Shown here: positions 1 through 34,685 of the stretch, one piece after another
Position numbering within the stretch: the first letter of the stretch is position 1
Layout: each line of letters begins with the position of its first letter
From: Podaxis mareebaensis
Taxonomy: Eukaryota > Basidiomycota > Agaricomycetes > Agaricales > Agaricaceae
Assembly (NCBI GenBank): GCA_018524725.1
Contig: JAEUWP010000165.1
Location: forward strand, 1-37,387
Reading direction: 5' to 3'
Length of the DNA: 37,387 bases
Made by a program: the position numbers and the translations under genes
Notes under the pieces: model-generated
The model's database searches: none
Seen by the model: only the letters and a program-made list of their open reading frames with translations
What the model was told of the DNA's origin: nothing

Positions 1-1877
1 TACAGTTCTCGAAGCAAGAAATATGCTTCGAACCTGCTGTGGATGTTGACGTGGTGGTTGTTCATGAACCGCCATAATCGAATTACTTGTCTCGGGGTTG
101 TAGGTAGACCCCGGCCTGCGATGTGGTGGACAGTGCCCTTCTTGTTGCTGTGGATGAACTCCCTACCTTGGAGTTCACTGTTTGCAGCAATTCGGGCATT
201 TGTACCAGTGAACACAGTGTTTATTCACTGGCAGTAGTAGACGTCATGCGACAACATTCTGTGCATGAAGTTGTCGTGTTCTCGAATGCCGGGTTCGGTT
301 CCCCAGAGTCCCCAAAAGTTGGGGACTCTACCTCCGTGGCCGATGCAGTCTGATACATCGGCACAGTCGTCATTATTTGATGATGACACCTTTGATTTGT
401 TCTTGTTCTTCTTACGACGATTCTTTGTGGAATCGTTGTCATCGCTCGAGTATTCCAGGCCTGATAGTCGTTCATCTGGGTCGTCTGGACTGTACCGGAC
501 GAACTCATGATGTAGTCGGATTTCAGACTCTGGGAGGAGAGTTCCTGGTGGGTGTACCAGGATTGGTTGGCCAAAGGAGAGTCCCTCAAATAGGGACTCC
601 GATGGGACGATGCCGCTTGAGGTCTGTTTTACTGACCTCAATGGGGTTGTTTGAGGAGGTTCTGTCATGGGGACATCGATGTCCCCAGACGGTACCTCCT
701 TGATGTATGGTAAGGTGATGTCAGCCGGTGGTGGTGGTGGCTGATGTGAGGTTGAAATGGTCGGTGGAGGCGAAGGTTGACGACGTTGGCGAGGTAATGG
801 TTTTACCTCGTTACCAGTGCATGGTGTCGGGGTCGTCGGAGTCTGTGGGGTGCTATGCACCCCCTGTTGAGACGACGTTGTCAATTGAGACATCGCGCGT
901 CGTTTTGCGGGCCATTCTTCTTCGTGGTCCGACTTTTCGTTTAGTTGTCGTTGCAGGTTTGAGACCTGCCTCTGTAGTAAACTGTTTCGTCCTTCGAGCA
1001 TGACGAAATGATCTTGCAGACTACGGAGCTTCGTGAGAAGCTCCTCGATAATTGCGTTACAAGCACCATGTTGGGAGCTGGTGCTTACTTCTGATATCAG
1101 GTCTATAGGTAGACCTGCTTTGTTGAGTTGGTTCATTAGCTCTTGGACATACTGGTTGTCCTCGAGCTCTATATCTACAGCTCTTTGCTTTCCTCAGGCT
1201 TTTGAGGAAAGGGCAGGCTGTGCTGACTCGGTTGATTTCTGTTTGCCCTTGTCCTTAGAGGACGAGGGCGCTGGGGAGTTTTTTGTTCTACTCCTTCCTT
1301 GAGTCGAGGTGACCAAGGATGATCAAGATGGAGGAGCGTTGTTCCTCCCTATGTTGGTTGCCAATGATGATGTTGGGGCCAGCGTTGTTGGTCGTGGTGT
1401 TGTGGCTGGCTGATCTTGGGTCGGCAGTGACAGCTGCGGTTGCGGTGGAAGTGGCAGCATTTGTTGGATTGGTGCAGTGGTGGGTTGTTGGTATGGTGGG
1501 TATGGCGCCAATGGAGGAGGGTAGGGTCCATATGGTTGAGTGAAACCGTACATGTGTGGAGGAGGTGGGTAGAATGCAGGGTATGGGTAACCCTGCGTGA
1601 AAGGTTGGGGTGGCAGAGGCATCGCATGTAAATGCGATGGATCCATTTGACTTGGACCTTGTGGTATCGAGCCCACAAGGTTAGATAGTAGTGCTTGCTG
1701 GGCAGCGAGTTGCTGCCCATTGTGGTGAGGAACTGGGATTGGGTCAGGTGATACGTCCATTGCCCTCCCCCCTTCGAGGCCCGTTGGAGGGCCTCCAGGA
1801 TGTGCAGGGTGATTTGCGTCACCCTGCGCTGATGCGTATTGTTGATTTTGGGTGTGTTGGGGTTGTTGCGCGTCCAT
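1..1877 (-). pseudogene. Third ORF downstream of pol, Pro/Gln-rich with coiled coil, function unknown
   Basis: The ORF starts at an ATG (1875-1877) in a strong context (ACCACCATGG) after a spacer behind the chromodomain. It stays open to the window edge except for TGA codons at 1323, 1194 and 225. The first 180 residues or so are rich in Pro, Gln and Tyr. A Ser/Lys-rich linker follows, then a heptad-like segment with Leu and Gln repeats (about 1000-1090), an acidic Ser/Asp stretch followed by a Lys/Asn-rich basic tract (about 370-450), and a more conserved-looking end with Trp, His and Arg. I do not recognise the family. It resembles the N-terminal part of gag in composition, so it could be a second structural protein. 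No signal peptide or membrane segment is evident, which argues against an env-like protein. Confidence 0.6.
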
Positions 1878-2003
1878 GGTGGTGGTGTTGAAGTGAGGAT
1901 GAATTAAAGTTATTTGTCCTGTCTTTGTGTTCCCAAACATTGGGAACGTGATCCTCAGGGTCAAGTGTCCAAATTTGGACACTATCAATTTTTCCACGGA
2001 TAG

Positions 2004-3725
2004 TCATTGACTGATCCGTGGTAATTGTTGAATTGAGTTAGCACCTTTCAGCTCTAGATACCGATCTAGAGCTGCTAGGTCTTTACAATGGCGATACGGC
2101 TCCCATGTCATATCGCCTAGACTCCAGCATACCTGGAATTCTGCCTTGCCATTGTTTGTGAAATGATGACCAATGATTTCGTCAATGAACCATTCATGTT
2201 TGTCGTCTACGCCAAAGTCGTAGGGTTCCGGTTTATTTCGGCTAGGGAATAGTGTATTGTCCAATGCATTATAGGGCCGAAGCAATGATATGTGGAACAT
2301 CGGGTGTATTCGACATTCCTGCAGGGCTGGTGGTAGCTCGAGACAGTAGTTAGACGTCTCAGGTTTGGCTTCCAGGACCTTAAAGGGTCCAATGAACTTT
2401 GGACAGAGCTTTCGAGCTCTGCCTTTCAGCAAGTTCAGGTTCTTGGTGGAGAGGAATACCAGATCCCCGACTTTAATGTCGGGTTCGGGCCCTCTCTTTT
2501 TGTTCACCTGGCGGGTTTGGAAAACCCATGCTTCTATGATGGCATCATGAGCGGACGCCAAGTTTATCAGGGCGGCTTCGGCAAATAGTCTAACACCCTT
2601 AGGGGGTGTTAGGTTGCCCCGTATTTCTCGGATCATGCTGGGCATGTATCCACTGTTCAATTCGAACGGTGCATACCCAGTAGTGGCCGATATACTTGAG
2701 TTTATAGCAAACTTGGTCATGGGTACCTTGTCTACCCAGTTTTTCTGGTCATGGCTGACCGTTGCTCGGAATATCTGTCCGATATTCTGGTTCATGCGTT
2801 CAGTCTGTCCGTCCATTTGTGGGTGGAATGATGTGGACATTAGGAGCTTGGCTCCTAAAATTTTATGGAGTTCTATCCACCAAATGGAGGTGAACTTTGA
2901 ATCTTGATCGCTTACAATTGAGCTAGGGAGGCCATGTAGCCTCACGATCTCTTGTAGGTAGATCCAAGATAACTCAGATGCTTTCATCCGCGTATGTACT
3001 GGGATCAGGTGTACCATACTCGTCATTCTACAAATGACGACCCAAAGGTAGTCAAAGCCTTTGGATTCAGGGAATGGGCCAACGAAGTCCATTCCAATGG
3101 AATCCCAAGGCTTGGTTGGGACTGGTAGTGAGTGCAGTGTCCCGGAAGGTTTCGTATTTGAGACCTTCGAGCATTGACATATTTCACATGTTCTGCAGAA
3201 CATGCATGCGTCTTTGGCTAATTTTGGCCACCAGTACCACCTTCAGAGGTACTCTGCTGTCCGTTGATCACCGAAGTGACCAACGATCTCGTGAGCTTTA
3301 TTCAAAAGCTCTGTAATTAAGGTTCGATTGTTGGGGACACATACTACCTCCCGTCCTTGGGGGGTAGTTCTTCTAATAATACCGTCATTGTTGATGGTAA
3401 AACCACTGTATTTCTCAGGTGCTTCAAGCACCGCTGAAAATATGGGGTCGGATGTGTATCCCGATGTGATTGTATTCATCACGTCGCTTGGGAGCTCCAT
3501 TGGAGCTTTGGTGGTGACATTACCCGTTAACATGTCTCCCAGTGTTGGGGACTTGGCAAGTCGTCCTTGTGGCTCCTGTTGAGCAACCTGTCTCTGGGCT
3601 GCTTCTTGGAGCTCACAAGCTTCGACCTCTCGTTCTTCCTGCCGTTCACACAGGCAGTCACTTTGCCACAATGGTCGCTCGGCCATTGCCTTGACTCTGT
3701 CGAGGAGATGCTCGATTTCCTCGGT
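2004..3725 (-). pseudogene. Gypsy integrase and chromodomain part of pol
   Basis: Integrase joins the cDNA to host DNA. The zinc-binding His residues lie before the TGA at 3243 and the Cys pair (CRTCEIC) just after it. The catalytic core has the first Asp in GMDFVGPFP, the second in VSDQD and the Glu in GQTERMNQ, so the DDE triad is intact. A C-terminal domain follows (GRARKLCPKFIGPFKVLE). A chromodomain-like segment (FIDEIIGH, later MTWEPY) then lies about 60 residues before the end. The TGA at 3243 falls in EYL-stop-RWYWWP, where homologs have Arg. The TGA at 2004 follows the chromodomain and may be the genuine pol stop. Several Gln residues sit where homologs carry Arg, as expected from CGA to CAA change. 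Confidence 0.92.
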
Positions 3726-5336
3726 TCATTGTAAGGGTAGATCCTCGCAGTGAGGATCGATTTTGTAGTTGACTTGGACGTAGTCTCCAGGGGAGTGTTC
3801 CTCTCCTGGGGTATCACTTTCGAAGTAGTGAGACAAGCAGTCCGCTACCTTGTTTCGTTCCCCTTTGACATAAGTGATGTCAAAGTTGAAGCATGACAGG
3901 TAGTCCATCCATCGTTGTTGTCGACTGGACAATCGCATTTGGGTTTTGAAAAACTCAAGCACTTTGTGGTCCATGATTACATGGATCCGATAACCAACAA
4001 GTTTATCTTCCCACTTCATTAGCGCTTCCAATATTGCTAGTGTCTCGAGTTCGTGCATGGCATAGTTTTGCTGTGCTGGGGTGAACTTCTTGGACATGAA
4101 CCCTGCTGGGCGGCAGTCTGCCCAGGTGGGTCCTTGTCCGTACATAGCTCCGACACCTGTCTTAGAGGCGTTGCAGATGATCCATATAGGTTCCCCAGTT
4201 CTGGGGTCTATCGGTTTGACGATGGGGGTCTTCTCGCAGATCCTCTTCACCATGTCAAAACATCGTTGGTGAAGGGGCCTCCAATGGAATGGAGTCCTGT
4301 TCTGAGTGATTGCGAGCAGTGGCCCGGTGTATGCAGATACATCTGGCAAAAAGTTTGCCAGGTAGTTGACAAGTCCAACGAATCGTTGGACGTTGGTATA
4401 GTTTCTGGGAGTGCGCCACTCCCAGATGCAGGTCAATTTGTCTTCGTCTGGGTGTATCCCTTGGTCATCGATAATATGACCAAGGCAGTCGACGCGATCT
4501 GCATACAGATCGCATTTGGATTGTTTGACATATAGCTTGTGTTTGCGCAGTCGCTCGAACACAAGCCGTAGATGATCTTCATGCTCATCTATCAAGTCAG
4601 AGAATATGAAGATGTCATCAAGGTATACGTGTACACATATACCTATGACGTTGCGAAATATAGCAGTCATCAACCACTGAAAGGTTGCAGGGGCATTGCA
4701 ATCCCCTTGCTGCATTATGTTGCTAACATACGTGCCAGCAATTGTGGCAAATCCCGTTTTGTCTACGTCTTCCAGATGTATTTGGACTTGTTCGTAGGCG
4801 TCAGCGAGATCGATTTTGGATCGATATTGCGCTCGAGCAACGTCTTCTCGAATGACGTCTTGGTCTGGCAAGGGCGTGGCGTCCTTGACAGTGTTTTCAT
4901 TTCATTGTCATGCATCTATGACTGTTTGTAGTCAACCATCTTTCTTTGGAATGCACAGTAACGGCGCTGCTTGGGAGACATGTCATGGCTCCCACCATCT
5001 TGCGTTCACATAACGGTTGAGTTTCTGGTGAAACTCCCTGCATAGAGATTGAGGGCATCGAGGAGTGAAGTAATTGTACTTCTTGTTCTCATCAATGAGG
5101 TTTATTTCATGATTTACTTCACGAAATGGTGGTAATTCATCGGGAGGACCTTGCATGATGTCCTCGAATTCGCTGAACCACTGCTGGCACAGAGTCGGTA
5201 TGTTTTTCTTGGAATACCGACCTTGTCACTCAGGGTGGCAATTCCTCTTTTCAGCATTAATACGAGTGTTTCGTATTTGTGTTTCTGAATCGTCTTCCAG
5301 TGGAAGACGAGTGACGATCATACTGCGGAGTTGATC
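3726..5336 (-). pseudogene. Gypsy reverse transcriptase and RNase H part of pol
   Basis: RT motifs are clear: PKKDG, then VIDA, TPLPDQD, KIDLADAY, and the catalytic box YLDDIFIFS with both Asp residues intact. The RNase H domain follows, but its first catalytic Asp has become Asn (ICNASKTGVGA, where the family has DAS), and FDF has become FNF. Both fit G-to-A change at a CpG spanning two codons. TGA codons at 5226, 4983, 4932, 4908 and 4902 interrupt the N-terminal part; the last three fall where homologs have Arg in the conserved VIDARQR region. The frame is otherwise uninterrupted. This copy cannot encode working RT/RNase H without those stops and substitutions being absent. Confidence 0.93.
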
Positions 5337-6635
5337 TCACACCATTTTATCAGGGTAATGTACCCTGGTAAACTCCTGGGTTTCGACTACATCGTTGAAG
5401 TTGGGTTGTGTGAACCCAGTTGAAGTTGGTAGTTCGTCCCCAGGATGACGCATTTCCCATATGCCGCAGACCATGGCGTTCCATTCTGCAGGCATTCGGG
5501 GGTCATAATACCACTCGAACATTGGGTTCTGAGCTGGTCTGTCTATCAAACGAGACTTGTATCTTGTTTTTTGTGGTCCATGAGGGGCATTTTGTCCCTC
5601 TTGATTTGGTGAAGGGGGCGCTTTCTCCTTTGGTTTGTGTCTCTTGGAAGAGACCTTGTGTTCTTCTTGATCCACGTCCCCCCTTCGAGAGTTCATGGAA
5701 CTCTCGACCTTTTCTAGGAGGTGATGGCTATCATGGGGTAATGTTTCCCCTCGGGGACTTTGTTCGTCATCTCGAACTTCTTCTATGGATGTTCAATGAA
5801 TATTATCTCGTCGAACATCCTCCACAAGTCAACTTGACTTGTTTTTGTTGGTTGCACGGTGGTGACGCAGGCGAGTATCTGATTCGCCAGCAAAATTCAC
5901 CACCGCTATGGTTTCGTTCCTGATTCTGACTTCATTCTTGATGAAGTCGAGGATGATGTTATTTGTATGCATGAATGGCATACTGATTATCATGTCGTAG
6001 CGATCGAAGTTCACTACATCTACATACATAGAGGTACATATGTTTCCAATGGCGACATTTACTGTTGCTCCATACTTGACAGTGGATCGACTGCCCACTG
6101 TCCCCAGCTGCAGTGTGTGAGGGTCTAATAGTTCGTTGACCCTGATGCCAGCCACTTGTGCAAACGTGGGGGTTATGCTGGTAGTCGTACTACCGGAGTC
6201 CCACAGTGTCCAAGCGTCAATACTGTTGATGCTGACAAGAGTGGTGAGACATTGTTTCTCACTGGGGGATGCTTGGGGCTGAAGGATCTTATCCTTCTCT
6301 TTATGGAGGGTGATGCGACGTACCCTCACTTCGTGGTCTGGTTTCTCGCTGGGCTCGACAGTAAGAGTGTCGACGACATCGAAGTCATCGCAGTCTTTGT
6401 CGTTGACATCTTCTGCATCGCCAATCATGGCAGCGAAATCATATTCGTCGTCAACATCAGATCCGTAGTCTGACTCGATGACTTCGACTTGTACTAGTTC
6501 ATCTCCGTTTGACAAACTAGACTCTGGTTCTTCTTGGACCTCAGTGTTGTCATCTGAGGTCAAGACCTGTTCGATTTCTTCAACTTCTTGTTGAAGAACT
6601 TCTTCATCGTTCGCTGGAATGACTGTGTGTGCGGC
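5337..6635 (-). pseudogene. Gypsy aspartic protease part of pol
   Basis: The retroviral-type protease motif LWDSGSTTTSI holds the catalytic Asp. The fold continues through LGTVGSRSTVKYGA to the second hydrophobic turn near MIISMPFM. An acidic N-terminal linker (Glu/Asp-rich, 6300-6600) separates it from the zinc knuckle. The segment shares one frame with gag and RT and is interrupted by TGA at 6636, 5829, 5793 and 5337. After the protease, residues from about 5700 to 5340 form a charged connector leading toward RT. Confidence 0.88.
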
Positions 6636-9593
6636 TCATACATAGCTGCGTCGTTTCCCCTTCTCTGGGCATTCTTGTGCCCAGTGGCCATGTTTTCTGC
6701 ATTCATAACAAAGCCCTTTCTCCGTGGCCTTGTTGCCTTGGATCAGCTTCACAGGTGCTCTGTTTTGCACTTGAGGTTTAAATTGGGCCTTGGGTTTATG
6801 CTGTCAAGGTGGAGGTCTCGATGGTCGCTTTGGTGGAAAGGCATTCGAGGGTCGCCTTAGCTCGTGAGCAGGAATGCGATCCCGTCCTGCGGATATGTGT
6901 CGAGGAACCCATGTGGTCCTCATTCTTGGTTCTGCCGTGGCAGGTTTCTTTGGGAAGCCTGCCGATGGTTCGTGTGATCAAGAGGGTTTCAAAACCCTTT
7001 CGAAGAAGGTGCTGCTTTGCATCCAATTCTCGTAATCGGCCGTGTGCACTACGAAGTCTTTGAGTTGGTTCATTTCAGGTGACAGTCCTCTGTCGAACAT
7101 AAGGAAGTGTCTCATAGTTTGCGGTAGACCTTCTAAGAAGGTCTCGATGAGAGAATAATTGTCGGGATGGACTGCCATATCTTGCGAGTAGCCCAAGATG
7201 GCGTCGTAATAGTGTTGAATCCCTTCCTTGGGATTGTATTTGACTCCCTTGAGGCTTTCACGAGCCTCATGCATCGATGTCGGTCTGATAAATCTGTCAT
7301 AGAGCGCCGTTATGACACTTTTGAAAGTCCAATCATATTTACTACGATCTATGCTAAGTACATGGTGAACGAACATCTCTTTTGCCTCTCCAATGAGATA
7401 GTATTGGAGGGTCAGGATGCGTAAATGGTCCATGGCAGGGTTTTGTCCCCCTAGTCCCTTCATGGCGAAGTCAGCACAGAGACTTGTCACAAATGACAAC
7501 AAGTCTCTGAATCGGTGACTTCCACTGTATGGCTCCAAGCTCTTTTCTGTGGGGAGCTTGTTCAACGAAGGTTTATAACCTTCAGGATATTCGATTGGTT
7601 GTGTGAGGTATTGGTCGATCGTTCTATGTAGACGATCATACATCAGATTATTGTAGCTCTGGACGGATTGTACGATCCCCAGAGTTACGGACTCGTCACA
7701 TGCTTCTCTAACTAGGGAGTAATGACAAGTCCCTCGACTTGGTGTTGGGAGTCGTGAGGTGTTATGCACCTCTCATTCCTCCTCTTCTTCATCCTCTTCT
7801 TCTTCCTCCCGTACTGGAGGGAGGTTTCGGAGAGGGTTTAGGTTACATAGCGGGGGCAAGCTTTGTCCCCGCGAAGGCGGTAGTACTGGTTGTTGGGGTG
7901 GGGAGGCCACCCTAACTGTTTTGCAGGGGTTGGATGTTTGAGGCATCTTAAGGGGGCCTCCGAAGAATACACGAGTAGCGAGTTTTTGCTCCTTGTGTTC
8001 CGACATAGTCGCTTCAACAGGTATATGTCCGTTGAACCTAACGTACTGGTCGTCTATCATAGACAACCCACGAGTGTGGATATCTTCGTTACGCATTCGT
8101 TGTAGAGCGATACGGTCACTCCATTTGTCGGCATGAGGGGTTCATTTAGCCGTGGGTAGTGCGAATGGCATGCTCGATGCTTGGATTGTATTAGCATTCA
8201 CCCAAATGCTAGTAGCTGAGGGCTGTTTGGCTTTGACATTTGATGTCGAAGCCACTGGAGATTTACTGCCGACCAATGGTTCGGCTGTTGGCAGGGGTGG
8301 AGCGGTTTGTTTTATCATTCCTGAGTTTGGTTTAGCAAGATTCATTGCAAGGTAGTTGCTACCTTGCATCATCGTCCTCGGTGATGGTGCACCCATTAGT
8401 CCTTTCCCCTTAGGAGAGGGGATAGGGGGTAGTCATGGTGACCATCGTGAGTTTGAGATGGTAATCTGACTTTGGTGGTCAGGCTGCATTAACAGTGAGG
8501 GTGGTTGTATTTGCGATGCCCCACCAGTTGGGGCATAGCGTTGTTGATGGTTTGCGAAGGTGTTGTTTCCCAGGACAGTTTCGCTGTCCATGACGGTGGA
8601 CTCTTCGATAGTAAAGTGGGCAGCTCTAAGGCTGTACCCTTGTGCGTGTCATTGTTGTGTGCTAAGGCATTCATTGTACACCTGGTCTGTCTCCCCAGGT
8701 TGCCGGGGTGCATGCAAGTGCACCACAGCTTGGGCAGTGTTCGATAGAGTGGCAGGCGATGGTGGTGCAATGCCAAGTTGTGGTTGGGGCATTGCTGGCG
8801 GTCTGTCATTATTGCATTGATGATTGTGTTCGTGCACTGGGTGTTGTTCGGCCCTCTTGATTGCCTCATCAATTTTGGCATTGAGGGGATCAAAGGTGAT
8901 CCCATCATTAGTGGAGTTGAGAACGTGCTCGAGGTATGGTTGTGTGGGTTGTATCTTGTACATGCTGTGCATGGGCGTAAGGTCAGTTCATTTGACCTTC
9001 GTGGCCCAAGCCTTTTGGTAGGCCATGCAAAGCTTTGTTAAAGCTTTGATATAAGTGGTGCGGAATCGATTGGAACTGACTTCTACTGGCAAGTCGGTTT
9101 CCCTGTACAACTCCGCTACGATTGTTTCGGCATATACCAACATCTGGTGTTGGCGTTGGCGTTTGATAATGCCATAGTCTGTAAATATTGAGTTGACTTG
9201 GTCTTCTAGGGAGACCACGTCGGTAAGGGTTGGTGGTGAGAATTCTGGTGTCGATGGTTCAGACTGTGAACCATCAGACCGGTGTGCTGTGTTGGGCGAC
9301 ATGGGTTGTGCTGCGAGGGGATGTCTCACTTCAAGTTTGGGGAAAAGAGGAAGCTCCTCTGGAGCTTCCTCACTGGTAGTGGATGAGTCGTGATTCGATG
9401 CGTCCGTTGGAGGGATGGTGATGGGAATTGGTGACGTTGGGTCGTTGTGTGGTGAGGGGATGGATGGGGGATGGGGTGTAGGTGGGGTGTGTGCGTCTTG
9501 TGCACTTGCATCGTGCGTCGTCACATCGAATTGTGGTTGCATGTCTTCGGACACGTCGTAGTGCCTGGGGGGGTGGTTGTACTGTGAGGTCAT
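6636..9593 (-). pseudogene. Gypsy Gag with CCHC zinc knuckle
   Basis: Gag forms the virus-like particle. The start is taken at the ATG at 9593, the first in the long frame after the leader. The N-terminal third is Pro/Ser/Thr-rich and low complexity. An acidic Glu run lies near 7775-7800. The conserved capsid-like domain spans 7770-6980, with Trp and aromatic positions and the PEMNQLKDFVVH region. A basic linker leads to a zinc knuckle at 6669-6710 with perfect spacing (CYECRKHGHWAQEC, CX2CX4HX4C). In-frame stops at 8988, 8649, 8433, 8142, 7773, 6978, 6804 and 6636 are all TGA. The upstream frame is open enough that a single gag-pol polyprotein, as in Tf1-like elements, was probably ancestral. 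Confidence 0.88.
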
Positions 9594-9970
9594 TTGTGTG
9601 AGTGGTGACGAGAGGTTTTTGCTTTAGGCTTTTAAGTGCAATAATTGCGTTTAATGGATTCGCTTAGTACATGCCCAAGTGTGGGGTACAGTAAAAAAGT
9701 GTAAACCCGTTGGGTTTACTTAGAGCGTATGACCTTACATTCACACCGAAGTACTGTAAGCCTGATGTATTGGGTGTACTTATGGTATGGTATAAGGTCA
9801 GCTGTCCTAATGACAGCTGACAACAAGATTTATAAGGAGTGCATTTTGATGGATTGAGTAATCCATCAAGGTCCAAGACAAACAATAAAAACAAATGATT
9901 AATTATTAATGAGCGACTCAAAATAATCCGGAACAATTGATGATACGACTGTAAGGGCCCAGCCCTTACA
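9594..9970 (-). repeat. 5' LTR and leader of the gypsy element
   Basis: Read on the minus strand it begins TGTAAGGGC at 9970 and contains a TATA-like TTATAAAT near 9829-9836, so transcription would run leftward into gag. The 3' boundary of the LTR and the primer binding site cannot be fixed without the second LTR; I see no clear tRNA-complementary PBS. Four near-contiguous perfect hairpins lie here: 9701-9719 (8-bp stem), 9797-9821 (10), 9846-9869 (10) and 9949-9971 (10). The element terminus is itself inside the last stem. Confidence 0.6.
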
Positions 9971-11660
9971 GAGGGTGTACCAATCTCATGGATCGAAGAA
10001 TGTGCAAAGTGGTTTTCGTCCCTACTGACGGCATTGCGGAATCGAGGATCTGTACTTGATGGCGAGTGAGTGTTAACATATTTAGCACATACCTGTCATA
10101 TACTGATATTCTGCTAGTACGGGCTTAGTAGTTCATAAAATTGAAGTGGTGACTACAGAAAGAACGGGTCAGCGAGGCCGCCCAAAGAAAGTCATTGATC
10201 CCAGGGTCATTCGCAAGATGATCCTTGGTGTAGGAGCTATGTCAATCAATAGAGTTGCCCGGCTTCTTGGGGTTTCAAGTCAAACTGTCCGCTGCTCAAT
10301 GACACGATACAGGATTCAGAGAAAGCCGTATCTTCCGATGTCAAATATGGATCTTGACACTGTGCTTTCAGTACTCAAAGAGCAGCGACCCAACATGGGG
10401 CAACGATATGTGTTTGGATTTTTGCAGAGGAACAACATTCGCATTCAGAGGAGGCGTATCGTAGAATCAATGATGCGAGTCATGGGGCTCAGAATCGCAC
10501 TGCGCAAGCATATGGTGAAGAAAATTCACCAGCAACCATACCATGTTTCACATCCTCATGCTCTTTGGCATATTGACGGACACCATAAACTGATTAGTTG
10601 GGGCATTGTCATTCATGGTGTGGCTGATGGTTACACACAGTTGGTGAGTAATTCATAAGAGTGCTTGACTCAAGTAACTGAAAATATGTTTCTAGATCAC
10701 TGGTATCAAAGCCAGCACCAATAATACGTCCGTGACCATGTTGAAGATGTTCATGGAGGTGGTTGGAAGGTATGGCCTTCCTTCGAGGGTCAGAGGAGAT
10801 AGAGGTGGTGAGAACAAGGAGGTTTCGATAGTGATGATCCTCTTACGAGGGTTCAATCGAGCAAGTTTCATCTGGGGGTCATCCACTCACAACACCTGCA
10901 TTGAGCGACTCTGGGTCAAAGTTGGGACTCAATTTGCACGAGAATGGAAAGCCTTCTTCCTGTGGCTTGAGCAACTCCATTTTCTTGACTGAACAGATGC
11001 AGCCCACCTCTGGCTCCTCCACCACCTCTTCCTGGATTCTATAAACCACAATTGTGCTGAGTTCCAAGGGAATTGGAACCATCATCCCATACGAGGGGAA
11101 GGTCACAACATGTCACCTGTGGTATGTATCATATTACTTATCCCACCTGAAGGTAATTGACATATCACCAGCAACTAGAAGCTGAAGGCCAATTATTACA
11201 TGGGTTCTATGGAGATGAATGTGAAGGCCTTCCGGTTGACCTCATTGAGCGATACTATGGTGTTGAAAGCCATACATTGAAGCATAATCCCCGTCAGGGA
11301 GGTGCTGGGTCTTTACAAGACGAAGAAATTGGGGTCGACGCAGCAATTGAACAGGTTGAGTCCAATGCACATCCTGAGGCTGTTCCTGTCCCACAAAGGA
11401 ACTGCCCATTTGATGAAGCTGAGATGATCGCATTCCAACATCAGCTGGCAGAATTCTGGCAGTCTGGATATGTGCCAGCAGGATACACTGTATGACCCAA
11501 TGAATGGGATGGCACATACCCATCTTATGAAGATATTCAAGTCGGGAGACGGGGAACTGCCCTGCATATTGGTCTTTCCCTTTCTGTCTGGTTGCCATGT
11601 GCAGAGGATTGGTCACGTGGACTCTATCTGCTGGAGAGTATCCTTAGTTTACGAACTTGA
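9971..11660 (+). pseudogene. Integrase-core (DDE) transposase-like gene, 5' truncated and with stops
   Basis: Four exons can be joined in frame: 9971-10065, 10118-10643, 10696-11121 and 11172-11660, with introns of 52, 52 and 50 nt. The product has a basic GQRGRPKK patch and an HTH-like segment (INRVARLLGVSSQTVRC). The integrase core follows with Asp in ALWHIDGHHK, Asp in RGDRGGEN and Glu in THNTCIERLW, then YYGVE and GRRG stretches known from a large Agaricomycete family. Homologs have upstream exons; here the first visible exon begins exactly where the gypsy LTR ends. TGA at 10990 (HFLD-stop-TDA) and at 11493 (GYTV-stop-PNEW) fall on Arg positions of the family. The gene is dead, but its splice sites survive. 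Confidence 0.85.
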
Positions 11661-14588: not shown

Positions 14589-17500
14589 TCAGCGACCAGG
14601 GAACGCACCCGGAATAGTCTGCCTTCGCCTCTCCGGGTGATGGAAATATGTTCCATACCTCGACGTCCTCGATGGTCCCACCGCACCCATCCCAGGTGTC
14701 GGAGCCGTCGAATCCGTACTTGCAAGCGACGCAATACTCTGTTCCAACCCCCCACCCGTCTGCGCCTCATACTGTTCATGATGTTGCGGATCTTCATCGC
14801 TATCTTCGTCGTCATCCAAGTCGAGCCAATCCCCATCATCTGGCAACATGATTACTCCGGACCCATGATCAAAGCTTAGTCGATGATGTAGTGTTGCTGA
14901 AGAATGTGTATGTGACCGTCGAGGAGTCGCTCGGGCATCTCCCCATGGATTTGGCACCGCAGCCGCGTCTGTTGGTATCTCTTGTACTCCGTTACTTGTG
15001 GGGGGTGGCGAGGATGGCCCCGGTTCTTGGTTTCCTCTATTACGGTTTCGTAACGAGCTGTATCGCTTCCGCAGGGTGAGCACAACAGTCTGGCCGTTGT
15101 CTTTGGTTCGCTGGCTATTATTATTATGGTTCACCAATGTCTGACCCTTCTTCAGCGGAAGCCATGGTTCTGGAAGGACTCCATTTAGGGCTGGGTGCCC
15201 GTATCGCCTCTTCCCAGTACTACACACTGGCGTTAATCATATTTAAATCACTTCAGATCAACTACTCACTTCAGGACACCACTGTACCAATTGGCCATAG
15301 GCGGTTGCGACTGCGAACATCGTCAGCATACACCCAGAGTCAAAATATGTCTGGCTCACATAATCAGTGCGCTCATCCTCTGGCGCGACGTACAACGTAT
15401 CGTCATTCTGCGCATACCTTCTCCGATTCAGATTACTACAAAACCATCAATTAACCATTCTATTCCTCGATGGAGTTAGAACCACAGCTCACCTCTGCGA
15501 CCAAGTAACAGGATGCCCAGCTCTCAGCCTCAACACTTCCGCCGTCTCTTCTCCCCTCTGCACTTCAAACACGGAACTCAAACTCACATATTTACTCAGA
15601 GGCTTCAGCTTCTTATCAATATACCATGACCACGCCACCGTTCCCACCAACAGTGGGATCAATAACGAGGAAAGTATCCATGACTTTCTCAAACTAAAGA
15701 TACCGGTCATGAACAGCAGGAAGATGACAACACCCCAGATAAGTCGGACGAATGTAATAGGCCAGGCTTGGCCCTGTGATTCGTACGGCTTGTAGAAGAC
15801 TAGGCGACGGTCAGCTTATAGTTACAAACAAGTTGGGGGACTTACCGAACAAGAGTTTATACTTGTAAACAACGTACCCAACTCCGAAATAGATAGCACC
15901 GAAGATGACGATCAACGGTTGTTGCACGCTATACAGCATCGTAATCACAAACATCAAAATAGCTTGCGGATACACCACGCCGTAGTTGATCATGGGCGGT
16001 GCATTCAGTTCCGCAAAGTCTGCAAACGATCAGTCAAGATAGGCACATGAGGGCGAAGATTCGGTTCACCTCGAGGCGTCCTCGTCCAGAACAAGCGGAA
16101 AAAGAATCGAGGGATAAGCACACCAAGATTCAGCAATTGCAAAGGCATGATGCCAAGACCTTGCAGAATGACGTATGATAAGAAAAAGTGCCGAGCTCTA
16201 CCAGCTTGTAATGCCAATGCCAACTTTTCTGGGACTTTGGCAGGCGAATTGGCCAGATCGCGAACGAGTTGCCAGTACGTCGTCGCCAAGAGGAAGATGA
16301 ACACGACGTTGATCAAGAGGAACAAAAAATACCTAATCGGAACGATCAATTAAATTAGACGCTAATCTAGATGAACGTACTTCTTCAGCAGTGAGTATTC
16401 AACCCAGCTGCGAGCCCTATATCCCTGGACATATGTCAAAGCTATTGCAACATCAAACATCAACCACTAAGTGAACATTTGAGGATACTCACCCTCAAGC
16501 ATGAACGGCAACAAGGCATTCAACGTGATCATTGCAACAGAAGGCAACGAGTTCTGCACGATGGCCCGCACTTGTTCGTTCGAGTCGATAAGGTTTCCAA
16601 GCCATGGCATGGTCTTCTTGATCTCTTTATAACTCAACAGCCCAGCCAGTGCGGTAATGGGGATAAACCAGAAGAAGAGCAGAAGAACCATGAGGACCAG
16701 GACAATGACATCCCGTGTACGAATAGCAGACGTTGAAGGAGCCATATTTGCCCAGACAATATCGCGGGGCTCGGGCGCAGGGTAAGTTGTGATTTGGAAG
16801 GGATTGGGGGCATGGGCCACCTGAACAGCGATTTGCTGACCAGGCGTTCAGTGTTAAAGAAAAACAAATTACGAACACACTCACAGTACTCGACATTTTC
16901 TCGAACGTCACAAATGCCGACCCGGTTGTCCTGAATTTCCCAGTCCTCCGCTTTTTCTTGACCAACTCATCCGCCTCTTTGAATTTGGTCTCCAGGAAAT
17001 CCAATGCATCTACTTTCGGCTTGAACCAACCAGGGCGTAATGTGGGCCGAGGCTTATGAGGAACGACAAACTTGGGCGAAGTACCGCCCTCGACGTCGGC
17101 ATCAACAAGTGGCATGGCACTGGTCTCTGGATCATATTCTTCGACTGTGCTTGGATTTCCGACATAGTCTACCCAGGCCCTTTCCAAAGCCAGTAATGCC
17201 TTGGTTCTCTGATCTAGTAACCTCTTCAGACTTCCAACCTCTCGGCATACAGTCACACTCTCCACCGCTAGTCCCATATTTTCAAAGTACTCTGCAAGGG
17301 GTCGTTCGCCTTGGAGGTGCTTGGGAAGATCGGTCACGAGGACAGTACGAGCGGGAATAGAATGCACAAGTTCGAGGGAGAAGAGTTGGCGCGAGCGGAT
17401 GAATCGACGATAGTTTTTGTAAATGAAGTGGAGAGCGAGGATAGTAAACAAGTAGGTGAAGACGAGGTGAATAGAAAGGTACGAATCGGCATCGCTGATG

Positions 17501-18305
17501 AGATCGAGCCAGTCGCGACTAGGAAAGGGAAAGGTTGTATTGGGACCAGGAGACGTTTCATCAAGAATTCTCGGGCGGGCGTAGACGGAAGGACGTAGGA
17601 AGAAAGAGGGCCAGTCGTCTCCATCATTCGGCCAATCGTCATCTTCATCCATGTTTTTGTTGTGCTACCACGCGAGAGTCAACGTTAGCCGACGGCATCA
17701 ATGATCGACTCACCTTCCAATTAAGCGGCATAAGAATGGTAATAGCAAATAGTGAGCATACCGAGAAGAGTTGGAATGCAGTCTTGAAGAAATTGAGAAG
17801 CTGGGTGGCGGTAAATAGGGAGCGATTGTTCTAGGGTGATCGAGTACAAACCACGGCAGCGTCTAGGCCGACGATTTGCAATACGGTGAATTCAGACGTC
17901 CTTATGGTTGGCATTATCCATCCGAAGAAGGCTTGGTGAGCGTGGGCCTCATGTGGCGAAAAGCCTAGAGCCAAGGTGAGTGTGAGCAAATGACATATGC
18001 CAGTGAGAACACTCGCCCTTTAGCTTGGTCCTTGGTGCAAACAGGAGAGGCCATCGGGTGCGACAGTATGAGAAGAGCATAAAGGATACGAACCCGATTG
18101 TTGCAGAGATGGTCAGCTGGGTTGTGAACCACGGGCCCTCGAACTTTTCTGCACATACGGTTAGGAGAATTATGAGTGCAGTGGATAAATACGGGGACAT
18201 ACGCATTGGAGGAGAGCCCGGAGGGAGGTTGTGTTCATCCCCGCCGCTGTCATCTGCAGCAAAGACTGCACGGAGCAAGGCGAGGAGATGGTCCGCAGTG
18301 GTCAT
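14589..18305 (-). CDS. CSC1/OSCA-like calcium-permeable stress-gated cation channel
   Basis: Thirteen exons join in phase: 18305-18203, 18148-18017, 17964-17852, 17800-17714, 17664-16885, 16835-16493, 16441-16381, 16332-16070, 16019-15846, 15799-15493, 15435-15360, 15310-15270 and 15219-14589, giving 1036 codons plus stop. The order matches the DUF221/RSN1-7TM family. There are three N-terminal membrane segments (about residues 45-63, 117-140, 207-228), a cytosolic region of roughly 200 residues with the LVTDLPKHLQ motif, a seven-helix membrane block (about 445-770), and the QPPMANWYSGVLN and GHPALNGVLPEPWLPL motifs. The tail is long, Ser/Asp-rich and disordered. The family forms osmotically or mechanically gated cation channels in the plasma membrane. 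The start ATG at 18305 is the only one giving an in-phase first exon. One intron (17965-18016) has a GC-AG boundary. No stops or frameshifts are seen. Confidence 0.9.
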
Positions 18306-18571
18306 TGGCGGGTGCAAAGAGCGGGAGCGGCGCGAGGAGGGAACGTGATGTTTGGTGGAAGCGTCTATATCAAATAGAGGTGGAGGGGGGACTAGAATAA
18401 ATAAGAAATAAGAAGGGGGGTTGGTGGGGTTTAAATGGAAATGGAACGAGATCGGGAATGAATGGACGGGAAGCCCTGAGAGAAGCTGCGCGTCGCCCAA
18501 ACAGTTCCAAAGCTGACGCGAGAATATTTAAAATACTCCATTTCTCGCCCTTCCTCTCAACTCCCCCCGTC
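18306..18571. promoter_or_regulatory. Shared divergent promoter of the channel and methyltransferase genes
   Basis: The two start codons face away from each other across 266 bp, so both promoters must lie here or inside the genes. A TATA-like ATATTTAAAATA at about 18523-18534 lies some 40 bp upstream of the methyltransferase ATG, followed by a CT-rich stretch. On the channel side the sequence is purine-rich on the plus strand, that is, CT-rich on the channel's sense strand. Confidence 0.6.
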
Positions 18572-20348
18572 ATGTCTCCTGCCTCCGCTGTCCGAGTCAC
18601 CAGCTACCCAGCCATTAAGAACGCTCCTCTCGTCGGTCTTGCAGAGGGGAATGGCTCCTTCAACAACCTCCATCTAGCTGGTCTCGTCCTCACCGTTCCT
18701 TACTTCCTCAAATGGTTCTTGCCCATTGTCAACCGGGGGGGCTTCAAGACTTACCTCTTCTTCCTTGTCATCTCTGGTGTCCCTACAACAATTGCCTATT
18801 GGACATTTATGAGCCATTTCGGCGCTCGTCGCAATGAAAAGGTCATTCTCCCAGGCAAGGACATTGAGGAGTATATCACTATCAAAGACGAGGACCTCAA
18901 ACGCGTCTACAAGGGCAAGGACAAGATCCCCATGCAGATATTCCATGACGCATATTTCGAAGGCAAAATCGACTTCAACGGTCAGCGACGCGTCCCAGTC
19001 TACCCAACGCGCCTAATTGACATTTCGTGGCATGGTTAGGTGACGTCCTGGATATCATGGAGCAGCGACATGATTGGGCCAAGTTCAACTTTACCATGGA
19101 GTTGTTCAAATATGTCCTCACTGTTCTCATCCCCGTGGTCATTTCCCACTCCCAGCTACAGGATGAGGAGCAAGTCCGTGACCACTACGACCGTGCGTTG
19201 CAGCCCAATATTTTTTTCTTCCAACTACGATAATTAACTCTTCTTCAGGGGGTGATGACTTCTACTCCTGGTTCCTCGGCCCTCGCATGATCTACACCTC
19301 TGGTATCATTAACAATCCCGACATTGAAGAGTCCCTCGAAACTCTCCAGGATAACAAGCTTGCTATCGTCTGTAGCAAACTTGACCTGAAACCCGAGGAC
19401 CGCCTTCTTGATATTGGTTGTGGTTGGGGTACCCTCGTTGCTTATGCCGCCAAAAACTACGAATGTGACGCGACTGGTGTTACTCTTGCGAGGAACCAAG
19501 CCAAATTCGGAACCGAACGTATTGAAAAGAATGGCGTACGTACCTTTTATCACCGATTTAACGTAAACACGCCAAGATTTACTCTCTTTCCCGTGCTAGA
19601 TCCCTTCAAGTCGCGCTCGCATTCTCTGTTCGGATTACCGCGACATTCCCGCCGGCACCACCTACACAAAAATTGTCAGCCTGGAAATGGCCGAGGTATG
19701 CTAATCCATGCATAACCGCAATAGTTCCTAAAAATGACCCTGTTTCTAGCATGTCGGTGTCCGCCGCTACTCGCAGTTCCTGAGCCAAGTTTATGACCTT
19801 CTTGACGATGACGGTATCTTTGTCTTCCAAGTCGCCGGAATTCGGCCCTCATGGCAGTACGAGGACCTCATCTGGTAGGCTAATCAACATTGCCAGTAGA
19901 CCATGAATTAACACACCCGCAGGGGTCTCTTCATGAACAAGTATATCTTCCCTGGTGCTGATGCTTCTTGCTCTCTCGGCTGGGTGATTAATAAAGTGCG
20001 TTACACATTGACAGTGCTTCCCACATCAATTGATTCACTCGACTATAGCTTGAGGGCGCTGGTTTCGAGGTTAAGAATATTGACGTCCTTGGCGTCCACT
20101 ACTCCGCCACTATCTACCGGTGGTACAAGAACTGGGTTAGCAATAAGGAGGACGTCATCAAGGCCTACGGCGAGAAGTGGTACCGGATTTGGGTCTTCTT
20201 CCTCGCCTACAGCATCATCATCAGTCGCCAAGGTAGTGCCTCCGTCTTCCAAATCACGCTTCACAAGAACTTGAACGCGTACCATCGTGTCGAGGGCGTC
20301 AAGAACCACGCTTCGATCCATGTTAAGCTCGACAAGCAACCTATGTAA
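18572..20348 (+). CDS. Sphingolipid C9-methyltransferase
   Basis: Seven exons join in phase: 18572-18980, 19040-19192, 19249-19535, 19600-19695, 19750-19874, 19923-19995 and 20049-20348, giving 480 codons plus TAA, a usual length for the fungal family. Two membrane segments near the N-terminus (about residues 34-53 and 63-80) fit ER anchoring. The SAM-binding motif is LLDIGCGWG at about 240-248, within a CFA-synthase-like domain. MAEHVGVRRY, LIWGLFMNKY and the end region (ISRQGSASVFQITLHKN) match fungal enzymes. The enzyme adds a methyl group from S-adenosylmethionine to C9 of the sphingoid base of glucosylceramide; this role is known from Fusarium and Candida homologs. The alternative reading, a plain cyclopropane-fatty-acid synthase, is less likely given the N-terminal membrane segments. 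No disruption is seen. Confidence 0.92.
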
Positions 20349-24875: not shown

Positions 24876-26794
24876 CACAACACATAAGTTGAAGCCAAGG
24901 CCTCAACCCCATGTCTATGTGCACCTGCCCTTGGCCACCCATGGTCCACCCCTGTCCAGAGTCAGTTCTTAACATCTGAGTTGAATTAATTGGCTTTCAG
25001 CTGACATTAATTCTTTGCCATCAGTGATTACTCAAGTCCTGTGTGACAGCCAACCTGGGAATAGTGATCCTGTTTCAAATCAGAGGTATGTCACACATAT
25101 TGTAGATTATTCGCATGGAATAGCCATTTCACCCTTGTGATAATTAGACTTAATCTACATTATGTTATTGACCATTCCTGACAATGAAGAGCTCACAAAT
25201 CCTCAAATATCTGTCTGAATCTACTGTCTTGCTCTCAGACTTGACACTAATTCTATAAGTCCTGAACATACACACTACATTGAAAACCTCAGGAAAAACT
25301 TGTTGCTTATCATGTCTAGACTCTAACACTATCAACAGAGCTATCTAGAATGATAATGTTTTTCCAGATCCCTATTGCTGCACACTCAACATATTTTTCA
25401 GAATACAAGGTCAGTGCAACCTTGAACTGGAACCAGTAGAAGCATTTTTAGAACCTGCTTCAAATCAAATCCCTAATTCTTTCTACAATTCATGCCTAGA
25501 AGGATGTATCAGATCATCCATGCTTGATTTCACATGTTGCATTCATACATTCATAGAAATACATAGGAATGTGAGTATATATGACATTTTGTGACTGTAT
25601 TGCAGGAAAAATAGGTTTTGTCTTATTTAATTTTGTATTATGTTTTAAAATATTGAAGTCCATCAAAGGTACCTAGGGATCACCAAGATTACCCAGGACT
25701 ATGTGCCAGCTCCTGTCATATTATGGATATAAAAAGTTTTACTTGTATTTATTTGTAGCTATCAATTAAATAGTAACAAACTCATATACCTTTAACTCAC
25801 TACTCTGATTTTACTTGCTTCATAACATGAGGGGTTGGTTAAAGAGCCTGAATTTTATCAAGAGTTGCTCTTTGCCTCAGTTTTAATCTGATACAATATA
25901 GGATCCTGTTATTATAAATAATTAATTTCACATCTATTGATTAACTGTGACTCTATAGTAGTCTATATGGTATTGCATAGGTCCTAACTTGTTTAGTCTA
26001 ATACTGTCTTGACATTATCATTCTAATTTATTAATTATATAACCTTGAACATTCATTTCATGCTCAGTTAAATATCTTAACTTTTAGCACTGGCTTCAAG
26101 TTGAAGCAAGCCAGGTCAGAATTGACTGTCACTGATTCAAACCTATTTACTATCTGCATCATACATCATCCATAGTAGCTTCATGATAAGATCTTAGAAT
26201 AATGTACTATAGTAAGTTATATATTATATATTAGTATTTATTTTAATATGCCCATATCTAAAAAAGATCTATAGAAGTTTACTACCTTTGTCTTTCTAAT
26301 GTTTTCATAGCAACTATTTAAACATATCCCAGCTGTGACACAGGAATTTAGATATGATTTGCATGTTCAACAGAACTAGGCTGACAAGATTTTCTAGGGA
26401 TACATCTACAAATATGTTGGTAATGTGTTATTTCCATAGATGATAGAGTGAAAGGATATTCCAGCTCAAGACAAGGCTAATTTCAAATTATAAGTTCTAA
26501 ATAAATAAGGATACTAGGCAACTGATCATCTCTAGTACTATGATGGGATTTTTTGCCTTTATCAGTTCAAGTAAGATTGGGCAACAGAAAAACTCAGTTG
26601 TCAATACTACAGTACCAAGGACAAGTATATCTATAAAATTAGATCTTAACTGTGAGTAATAAGCACAAGTATTGCAAGATTAACTCATGTAAATATACTA
26701 GTACTAGTTCTTATTGTAAAAAGACTTTCTCTATAGTAGCTGAAGCTGTGAAAGTTGCCATGAAGAGAGTCAATGTTACTTCTAGAAGACTAGT
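24876..26794. other. AT-rich stretch, nothing recognisable
   Basis: No ORF of note, no RNA gene and no repeat structure that I could identify. The sequence is AT-rich with a single CpG (25112). Confidence 0.6.
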
Positions 26795-26926
26795 AAGAAA
26801 GCACACAGTGTTACTAAGGTAGTTGAGGAGCAATGCAAATTCACCAATGATTCTGGTAGTGAATCTGCTAGCAACAAGTCTGACAGGTCTGACAATAATG
26901 AGGATGATGCTGATGATACTGAGTAA
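26795..26926 (+). pseudogene. Possible exon remnant with acidic tail
   Basis: Forty-three codons open to a TAA at 26924: a basic start (KKAHSV) followed by a Ser/Asn/Asp/Glu-rich acidic end. Such tails are common at the C-terminus of nuclear proteins. No domain can be seen and the call rests on composition only. Confidence 0.3.
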
Positions 26927-27217
26927 GTAGAGGGATTAGACAAAGAGGTGGTCTATGAGGAAGAGTAGATGGTGATAGTAATAGTCAGGTCCAACATTTT
27001 TAAATGCTAGCACCAAGGACATGCTGATTTCTCTTATCTTTTATGCCACCCTTTCCCTTCTAGACAAAATACATCATTTCTCATTGCTCAATAGATGGTT
27101 TTGAGTATATGACAAATACACATGTACTCATCAAAGCAACCAGTGAGCAGAGGCAAATCAACCTATGTTTTGTTGATCTGTCCCTTAGTGAGCTCTGAAT
27201 GATGTTGACCATGTTTT

Positions 27218-34568: not shown

Positions 34569-34685
34569 AGGGACAGTTTGGCAGAATTCCTGTAGTTTTG
34601 CCAGTTTTGCTGGCAATGCCACTGACCTGCCTAGCATTTGCCATTCTGCCAGCCAGCCATGGCAGAATGGCAGAGCTCTGCCATC
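34569..34685. repeat. Second TGGCA/TGCCA cluster
   Basis: Roughly ten TGGCA or TGCCA words fall within about 115 bp (TTTGGCAGAA, TTTTGCCAG, GCTGGCAATGCCA, ATTCTGCCAGCC, ATGGCAGAATGGCAGAG, CTCTGCCATC). It lies just upstream of the FunK1 relic. It resembles the cluster at 27379-27460. Confidence 0.6.

Follow-up and report, generated by a model that had tools for sequence, protein, structure and literature searches.

The first 9,970 positions of a 37,387-nt stretch of DNA from the fungus Podaxis mareebaensis (contig JAEUWP010000165.1 of assembly GCA_018524725.1; the whole stretch is called the window below) hold a Ty3/Gypsy retrotransposon, read on the minus strand and truncated by the contig start, that is crowded with short perfect hairpins. 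Taken together, the comparisons described here indicate that natural selection probably preserved this array, for its pairing in the plus (coding) strand, during the time when the element was mobile. The RNA would then carry isolated, short and perfect hairpins along its whole length, selected for base pairing, and these would act in the full-length RNA.

Unless otherwise stated, a hairpin is a perfect inverted repeat with a stem of at least 8 bp and a loop of 0 to 10 nt. Positions 1-9971 contain 45 of them, compared with 1.2 in dinucleotide shuffles (s.d. 1.0, maximum 4, 60 shuffles). A preliminary description of this DNA had spoken of more than 25 such repeats where chance would give about 1.5; the expectation was about right, and the count was an underestimate. 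The remaining 27.4 kb of the window is near chance (8 hairpins vs 5.4 in 20 shuffles, maximum 9), and the channel and methyltransferase genes, described as lacking hairpins, do lack them, with none between 14,325 and 22,603. Hairpins occur in the long terminal repeat (LTR) and in each of the six open reading frames (ORFs) counted, and it had been argued that in the hairpins over conserved residues the pairing must be built by codon choice. The codon-shuffled controls suggested for this point uphold the argument: 300 protein-preserving synonymous-codon shuffles of the six ORFs gave a mean of 3.4 hairpins and a maximum of 8, where 26 are observed. All four reverse transcriptase (RT) hairpins singled out beforehand are real (Table 1), one of them slightly longer than first given (4404-4426 rather than 4405-4425), and two more lie at 3863-3885 and 4494-4513.

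The excess is shared by the relatives of the element in the same genome (assembly of 36.95 Mb in 429 contigs). Family A, to which the window copy belongs, numbers at least 26 close copies, counting that of the window, with 81-100% RT identity across the whole query, and its sister family B at least 17, some of them partial, with 65-76% RT identity; the two families are about 65% identical. All 34 RT-region loci fetched (27 of family A and 7 of family B, that of the window included) carry 2.8-6.4 hairpins per kb, and all 20 sequences of the third ORF, a long extra frame downstream of the integrase (19 of 61 matches fetched, plus locus L040), carry 2.7-7.1 per kb. Nine RT-region loci of other Gypsy elements of this genome (34-38% RT identity), on the other hand, have 4 hairpins in 28.6 kb. 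Since the loci of families A and B are rich and the nine others poor, neither the genome, nor the assembly, nor Gypsy elements in general explain the excess.

The geometry of the pairing is simple. In the window copy, stems of at least 6 bp are enriched at loops of 0-15 nt and fall to near chance beyond about 16-20 nt, with a weaker long-distance excess in some other copies, L013 and L033 among them (31-45 and 61-100 nt in these two). Among the 76 hairpins with a stem of at least 7 bp there is a single overlapping pair, compared with 11.2 under random placement. Stems measure 8-11 bp in the window and up to 15 in other copies, and about 28% of the bases lie within hairpins when stems of at least 6 bp are counted with their loops. 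The folding-energy difference from dinucleotide shuffles averages 29.9% (range 7-60%, 28 windows of 350 nt), against 3.2% in the remainder of the window (20 windows). Shuffling everything except the perfect hairpins (stem of at least 6 bp) preserves 82% of the excess energy, compared with 28% for MS2 RNA. The element RNA is better described as a row of simple hairpins than as a general fold.

To follow the fate of the stems we compared copies with one another. The family A copies differ chiefly at CpG sites (5876 of 9630 minority letters), and in-frame RT stops are TGA in nearly all cases; CpG to TpG/CpA changes together with TGA stops amount to a decay of family A that resembles methylation or repeat-induced point mutation (RIP). 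CpG columns were therefore excluded from the counts of one-sided pairs, A/B covariation, private changes, two-sided changes and G.U/A.C mismatches, from the third-ORF and 5'-region tests, and from the LTR variability means. The poorly aligned L025 was left out of the one-sided-pair, covariation and arm-balance tests, L017 additionally out of the one-sided-pair test, and L007, L023, L025, L026 and L029 out of the analyses of private and shared changes. Source-to-copy comparisons and counts with CpG kept were set aside for ascertainment bias or for CpG on both arms, as were the first covariation lists, which were mostly CpG.

With stem pairs defined in one group of copies and compared between two others, one-sided differences within families are about half as frequent in stems as in matched Watson-Crick control pairs: 4.3 vs 9.0%, 5.1 vs 10.7%, 5.0 vs 10.9%, 8.1 vs 15.2%, 4.6 vs 10.6% and 12.7 vs 23.7%. 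Across families they are slightly lower (33.2 vs 38.2% and 30.3 vs 39.4%). The fast-evolving third ORF provides deeper branches, such as that between the groups alpha and beta. For hairpins defined in alpha, the divergence of the two groups is 3.1% within stems, 19.2% within loops and 18-23% in the flanks and elsewhere, a comparison that is biased, as is its beta-defined counterpart, by taking the hairpins from one of the groups compared.

This bias is avoided when the stems come from a lineage other than the two compared, the hairpin being required in at least one copy. In these third-lineage tests, whose p values are approximate because independence from the source branch does not hold for every lineage, stems differ less than other columns between beta and L061 (27/288 vs 188/1329, p=0.035; third codon positions 8/96 vs 109/440), beta and L058 (10/288 vs 155/1337, p=8e-6; 5/96 vs 112/444) and beta and L060 (26/273 vs 210/1252, p=0.002; 7/92 vs 136/416). 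The same holds between alpha and beta, with stems taken from L058/L061 (12/180 vs 269/1474, p=3e-5; third positions 6/60 vs 181/484) or from L060 (2/103 vs 286/1588, p=1e-6; 0/33 vs 187/511), and between alpha and L060 with stems taken from beta (36/310 vs 231/1177, p=0.0009; 17/100 vs 145/408). Family B gave two further tests in the same direction (19/268 vs 215/1286, p=2e-5; third positions 9/90 vs 138/450; and 12/183 vs 251/1457, p=7e-5; 5/61 vs 147/491), and a third that is described below. In eight of the nine comparisons, the rate of difference at third codon positions within stems is at most half that outside them. Loops are near background in six of the nine and low in the tests with L061, with L060 as source and with L064 as source, which have few loop columns (73, 22 and 37). 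In the 5' region, two of three tests of this kind again show less change in stems than in other columns (15/215 vs 383/2789, p=0.003; 21/237 vs 381/2757, p=0.03).

Private changes, taken as having arisen after insertion, behave differently. Stems make up 9.0% of the bases and hold 10.0% of the private changes (236) and 5.6% of the shared ones (281 sites), shares for which significance was not computed. Private changes thus strike stems freely, which argues that stems are no mutation cold spots there.

In the LTR the conservation extends to the pairing itself. The LTR set comprises 39 of 40 matches and the two LTRs of copy C279, 41 in all. Stems have a mean pairwise difference of 0.060, loops 0.185 and the remaining columns 0.167; stems were taken from the window LTR, and three other source LTRs give a similar result. 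A rotation test over almost identical columns, where the mean is 0.051, yields a value this low in 1 of 270 rotations. In the hairpin at the 3' end of the LTR, one pair is A-T in 23 of the 41 LTRs and G-C in 18, with zero mismatches, and the outer pair of the hairpin at 9846..9869 (columns 117/142) is T-A in 37, T.G in 2 and C-G in 2, the last being both LTRs of C279. The end-hairpin alleles of these two LTRs differ, and both are paired. Allele blocks are also shuffled among copies, which, with the different alleles within C279, suggests that co-packaged RNAs may have recombined.

Within the RT gene, most differences among family A copies in the hairpin at 4373..4391, the least often perfect of the three scored (Table 1), lie at CpG sites. 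Residues coded by RT stems are as family-typical as other residues (0.631 vs 0.612, p=0.60, 69 homologues). Codon register was analysed in RT only; there, in all 13 recurrent hairpins (present in at least 5 copies), third codon positions face first or second positions and never third ones. A synonymous change could therefore rarely be compensated without changing the protein, and this would account for the mostly frozen state of coding stems; in RT, this register would lock synonymous sites to the partner arm and to the protein. Columns 1951/1982 of the alignment hold a covarying coding pair (A-T 17, G-C 8, G.T 1), which joins the third position of an Arg codon to the first position of a Leu codon, both changing synonymously according to the codons as read by eye.

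Which strand is under selection was addressed through the mismatches that stems tolerate. An antisense or complementary DNA (cDNA) hairpin would tolerate, as its wobble, changes that read A.C on the coding strand. Counted once per pair on the coding strand, with pairs of mixed kind excluded and the RT part taken without L007, L017 and L025, single stem changes comprise 69 G.U, 58 A.C and 18 other, whereas control pairs give 5186, 7918 and 4036. G.U is in excess over A.C (odds ratio 1.8, p=0.001, a modest effect) and other mismatches are depleted (odds ratio 0.46, p=0.001), the p values being approximate, since one control pair can overlap another. Three of the four sets have more G.U than A.C (28:19, 21:19 and 14:10), and the fourth, the third ORF of family B, has fewer (6:10). 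The bias in tolerated changes points to the plus-strand RNA as the probable target.

Several observations weigh against selection for pairing. The divergence of beta-defined stems between alpha and beta, 8.9%, is only about half the background (loops 20.5%, outside 16-26%), and the comparison of beta with L061 is weak, its loops being as low as its stems (7/73). Two third-lineage tests are null: family B with stems from L064 (4/124 vs 72/1476, p=0.51; third positions 3/41 vs 46/501) and the 5' region with stems from L039 (11/261 vs 170/2766, p=0.27). Of the 51 hairpin positions found in at least 4 copies, 9 are common to both families, so that most hairpins differ between A and B, and covariation between the families is weak: two-sided changes leave a pair in 9 of 14 cases in one direction (controls 33.6%, p=0.02) and in 3 of 9 in the other (controls 38.6%, p=1). 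Raw mismatches in family A stems favour A.C over G.U, as do raw LTR stem cells with CpG kept (A.C 52, G.U 38). These raw counts, uncorrected for CpG decay or for a coding strand rich in A and C, had pointed away from RNA and were superseded by the counts controlled for composition and CpG. Beyond the planted hairpins, neither strand is favoured by folding energy, although a comparison of the two strands is uninformative on this point because their composition differs. Finally, no common loop or tetraloop was seen when loop composition, tetraloops and stem 4-mers were tabulated, and conservation is mostly lack of change, with little compensation at coding pairs. The prospect raised beforehand, that related copies might show stems breaking without compensation, is thus answered in part: stems are more conserved than their surroundings and do not break freely, two null tests notwithstanding, while the compensatory changes looked for are found mainly in the LTR and at few coding pairs. 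As most hairpins differ between the families, they appear to be held long but not permanently.

The preliminary description had offered two readings, selected RNA structure and a template-switching mutation process; the first is supported by the above and the second is not. In template switching, or quasi-palindrome correction, the cDNA growing during reverse transcription would fold back and copy one arm from the other, making and mending hairpins, a process described for RNA genes (PMC8794818). The stems are indeed perfect and local, the 82% energy share held by such hairpins and the lack of strand preference would suit it, and pairs of private non-CpG changes no more than 6 nt apart are in excess (19 vs 5.7 expected; RT region of 22 family A copies). 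However, among 269 private changes in 22 copies there is no cluster of 3 or more, and private changes create stems as often as random ones do (1.5% each). Arm copying would be expected to spread new changes to both arms, yet stems are mostly static: between alpha and beta, stem pairs with two-sided changes number 0 of 130 and 2 of 139 (the sets overlap). Judged against a matched control (an earlier binomial null was unsuitable and had made the balance look extreme), A-B differences are spread more evenly over the two arms of family A hairpins than over those of the controls (35 vs 49 and 54), and in family B hairpins they match the control (24 vs 23). The ordinary family-typicality of stem-coded residues and the avoidance of overlapping hairpins also speak against the process, which we consider improbable.

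Selection could instead act on DNA, through cruciforms or hairpins of single-stranded cDNA, for example in integration, replication or the control of transcription from the LTR. Perfect Watson-Crick stems, folding energy without strand preference and the hairpins at both LTR ends would all be compatible with it. The coding-strand excess of G.U relative to A.C, as expected of plus-strand RNA, and the presence of hairpins in all six ORFs counted, far from being confined to the ends, make such selection an unlikely source of the array as well. An ordinary origin in base composition, repeats, assembly or local mutation rate has a negligible chance of being right, nothing of weight favouring it beyond the altered composition of copies under heavy CpG mutation, since dinucleotide and codon shuffles do not reproduce the excess, 34 loci share it while nine other Gypsy loci of the same assembly do not, and private changes meet stems at the neutral rate.

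If the hairpins were indeed selected in the plus-strand RNA, their function may, with a likelihood somewhat under even, be that of many redundant points for Gag binding or compaction during packaging and reverse transcription. This fits many exchangeable hairpins, isolated stems and the zinc-knuckle motif of the element; Ty3 Gag has a zinc knuckle. Shielding of the RNA from host surveillance or degradation is a rather unlikely role and fits less well, because only about 28% of the bases lie in hairpins. At this density an element with a length of about 11.7 kb would hold about 50-70 hairpins, and we tentatively propose, at little less than even chances, that the whole RNA would be organised as a string of these small, perfect and individually conserved hairpins, forming a multi-site cis-acting system of packaging, compaction or protection.

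The nearest known kind is genome-scale ordered RNA structure (GORS) in RNA viruses, which the element resembles in having structure across the whole genome, coding regions included, with less variability at paired sites, and in that most pairings differ between sister families. Its folding-energy difference is likewise high: PMC7642675 gives 7.5-10.7% for hepatitis C virus (HCV), around 15% for SARS-CoV-2 and at most 23.4% for a vertebrate RNA virus, obtained with a shuffle similar, though not identical, to ours. The element differs from GORS as a fungal LTR retrotransposon with isolated perfect hairpins rather than general stem-loops. The main difference is that single stems are better conserved within families than the sequence around them, whereas GORS pairings are described there as poorly conserved even between close relatives (PMC7642675).

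Dispersed packaging signals offer a second likeness, that of many stem-loops over a genomic RNA (here 45 in 9.97 kb). MS2, whose packaged coding RNA also has many dispersed stem-loops, shows an equal folding-energy excess with the same script (29.9% each). The element differs from MS2-type folding in its density of perfect stems of at least 8 bp (4.5-6.3 per kb in seven copies compared, vs 0.84 per kb), in its hairpin energy share and in the lack of any shared loop motif seen; the MS2 signals share an apical-loop motif (PMC6281560). The genomic RNAs of yeast Ty3 and Ty1, probed by selective 2'-hydroxyl acylation analysed by primer extension (SHAPE), are likewise LTR-retrotransposon RNAs in which structured regions are spread over the genome; the passages of PMC11381356 compared here speak of cis elements and a well-folded core, and of no genome-wide array of perfect conserved hairpins. 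Hairpins of RNA genes attributed to template switching are likewise perfect and short and show compensatory evolution (PMC8794818), but the element showed no one-arm replacement footprint and its stems are mostly unchanged. No LTR retrotransposon of this kind appeared among the matches listed in a targeted literature search, subscription papers aside.

Selected RNA structure that pervades a genome is known in RNA viruses, and its purpose there is under debate. Here, dozens of diverged and mostly broken copies in one genome separate selection, which acted while the element was mobile, from mutation after insertion, and this separation makes the purpose of pervasive RNA structure and its evolution within genes testable. 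The transposon seems to depend on a pre-folded RNA. Synonymous sites of such elements would not be neutral, which affects the dating of transposons and the ratio of nonsynonymous to synonymous change (dN/dS).

The element itself belongs to the Ty3/Gypsy LTR retrotransposons (Metaviridae), with protease, RT-RNase H and integrase in this order and direct LTRs of the form TG...CA; Pfam reports RVP_2, RVT_1, RT_RNaseH, rve and SH3_Tf2-1 on the minus strand, in Gypsy pol order (Table 1). Copy C279 has both LTRs (L039 3326-3588 and L040 1069-1331, 91% identical), and LTRs run from TGTAAGG to TTTACA or CTTACA. The window copy retains the 5' LTR only: compared with C279, it lacks its last ~1.7 kb, which comprise the 3' LTR and about 1.4 kb of internal DNA. 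The gag-like ORF, which we take to resemble Ty3 Gag, has no Pfam match. The integrase C-terminus presumably resembles a chromodomain, the mark of chromoviruses, as judged by eye, and Pfam reports none there at E<=0.001. Positions 1..2003, with 8-9 hairpins per kb, are the densest part except the LTR, and their ORFs, the long extra one included, have no Pfam match. The latter is open over 744 aa in C279 (L040:1502-3736) and matches 3-977 of the window; it is at best 39% identical between families A and B and has 14 homologues, including Agaricus bisporus and Panaeolus cyanescens. RT relatives known as proteins reach 75% identity among those with a species name, in Hypsizygus marmoreus (over 86% of the query), and include one of Pleurotus cornucopiae at 59%. 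The viral-contig and genome-contig collections searched held no related locus, and Rfam gave no match at gathering thresholds.

Table 1. Features of the hairpin-rich element within the window.
Feature	Position	Strand	Remarks	Basis
Ty3/Gypsy element	1..9970	-	45 perfect hairpins (stem 8-11, loop 0-10)	Hairpin scan, Pfam
5' LTR	9700..9970	-	271 bp, TG...CA; four hairpins including one per LTR end	Comparison with copies
Hairpin at LTR 5' end	9949..9970	-	TGTAAGGGC / GCCCTTACA	Hairpin scan, LTR alignment
LTR hairpin	9846..9869	-	TTGATGGATT/AATCCATCAA	Hairpin scan, LTR alignment
LTR hairpin	9797..9821	-	GTCAGCTGTC/GACAGCTGAC; stem little changed in 41 LTRs, loop variable	
Hairpin at LTR 3' end	9701..9719	-		Hairpin scan, LTR alignment
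gag-like ORF	6978..7769	-		Position in element
CCHC zinc-knuckle motif	6669..6710	-	CYECRKHGHWAQEC	Pattern match only
Aspartic protease ORF	5829..6563	-	3 hairpins	Pfam
Reverse transcriptase-RNase H ORF	3729..4871	-	6 hairpins	Pfam
RT hairpin coding LGHIIDDQG	4459..4485	-	CCTTGGTCAT/ATGACCAAGG; perfect in 26/27 family A and 0/7 family B loci	
RT hairpin over EWRTP	4404..4426	-		Hairpin scan
RT hairpin over VQRFVGL	4373..4391	-	Perfect in 9/27 family A loci	
RT hairpin over LANFLPD	4343..4361	-	Perfect in 21/27 family A loci	
Integrase ORF (rve, SH3_Tf2-1)	2004..3203	-	5 hairpins	Pfam
Region downstream of integrase	1..2003	-	Shorter ORF, then start of long extra ORF	Match to copy C279

Outside the element, the adjoining ORF at 10146-10658 has an rva_4 integrase-core match (PF24764) and is probably another mobile element. 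Further along lie a host gene for a PHM7-type 10TM protein (16627-17652) and the start of a sphingolipid C9-methyltransferase-like host gene (18458-19039), so named by 3 among the 120 matches listed, one of the matches being from Termitomyces. A compact cluster of TGCCAT/ATGGCA repeats at 34639-34684 gives rise to three overlapping hairpins, and positions 25001-27000 are A/T-rich, with 33-34% GC compared with 39-52% in the remaining 1-kb windows.

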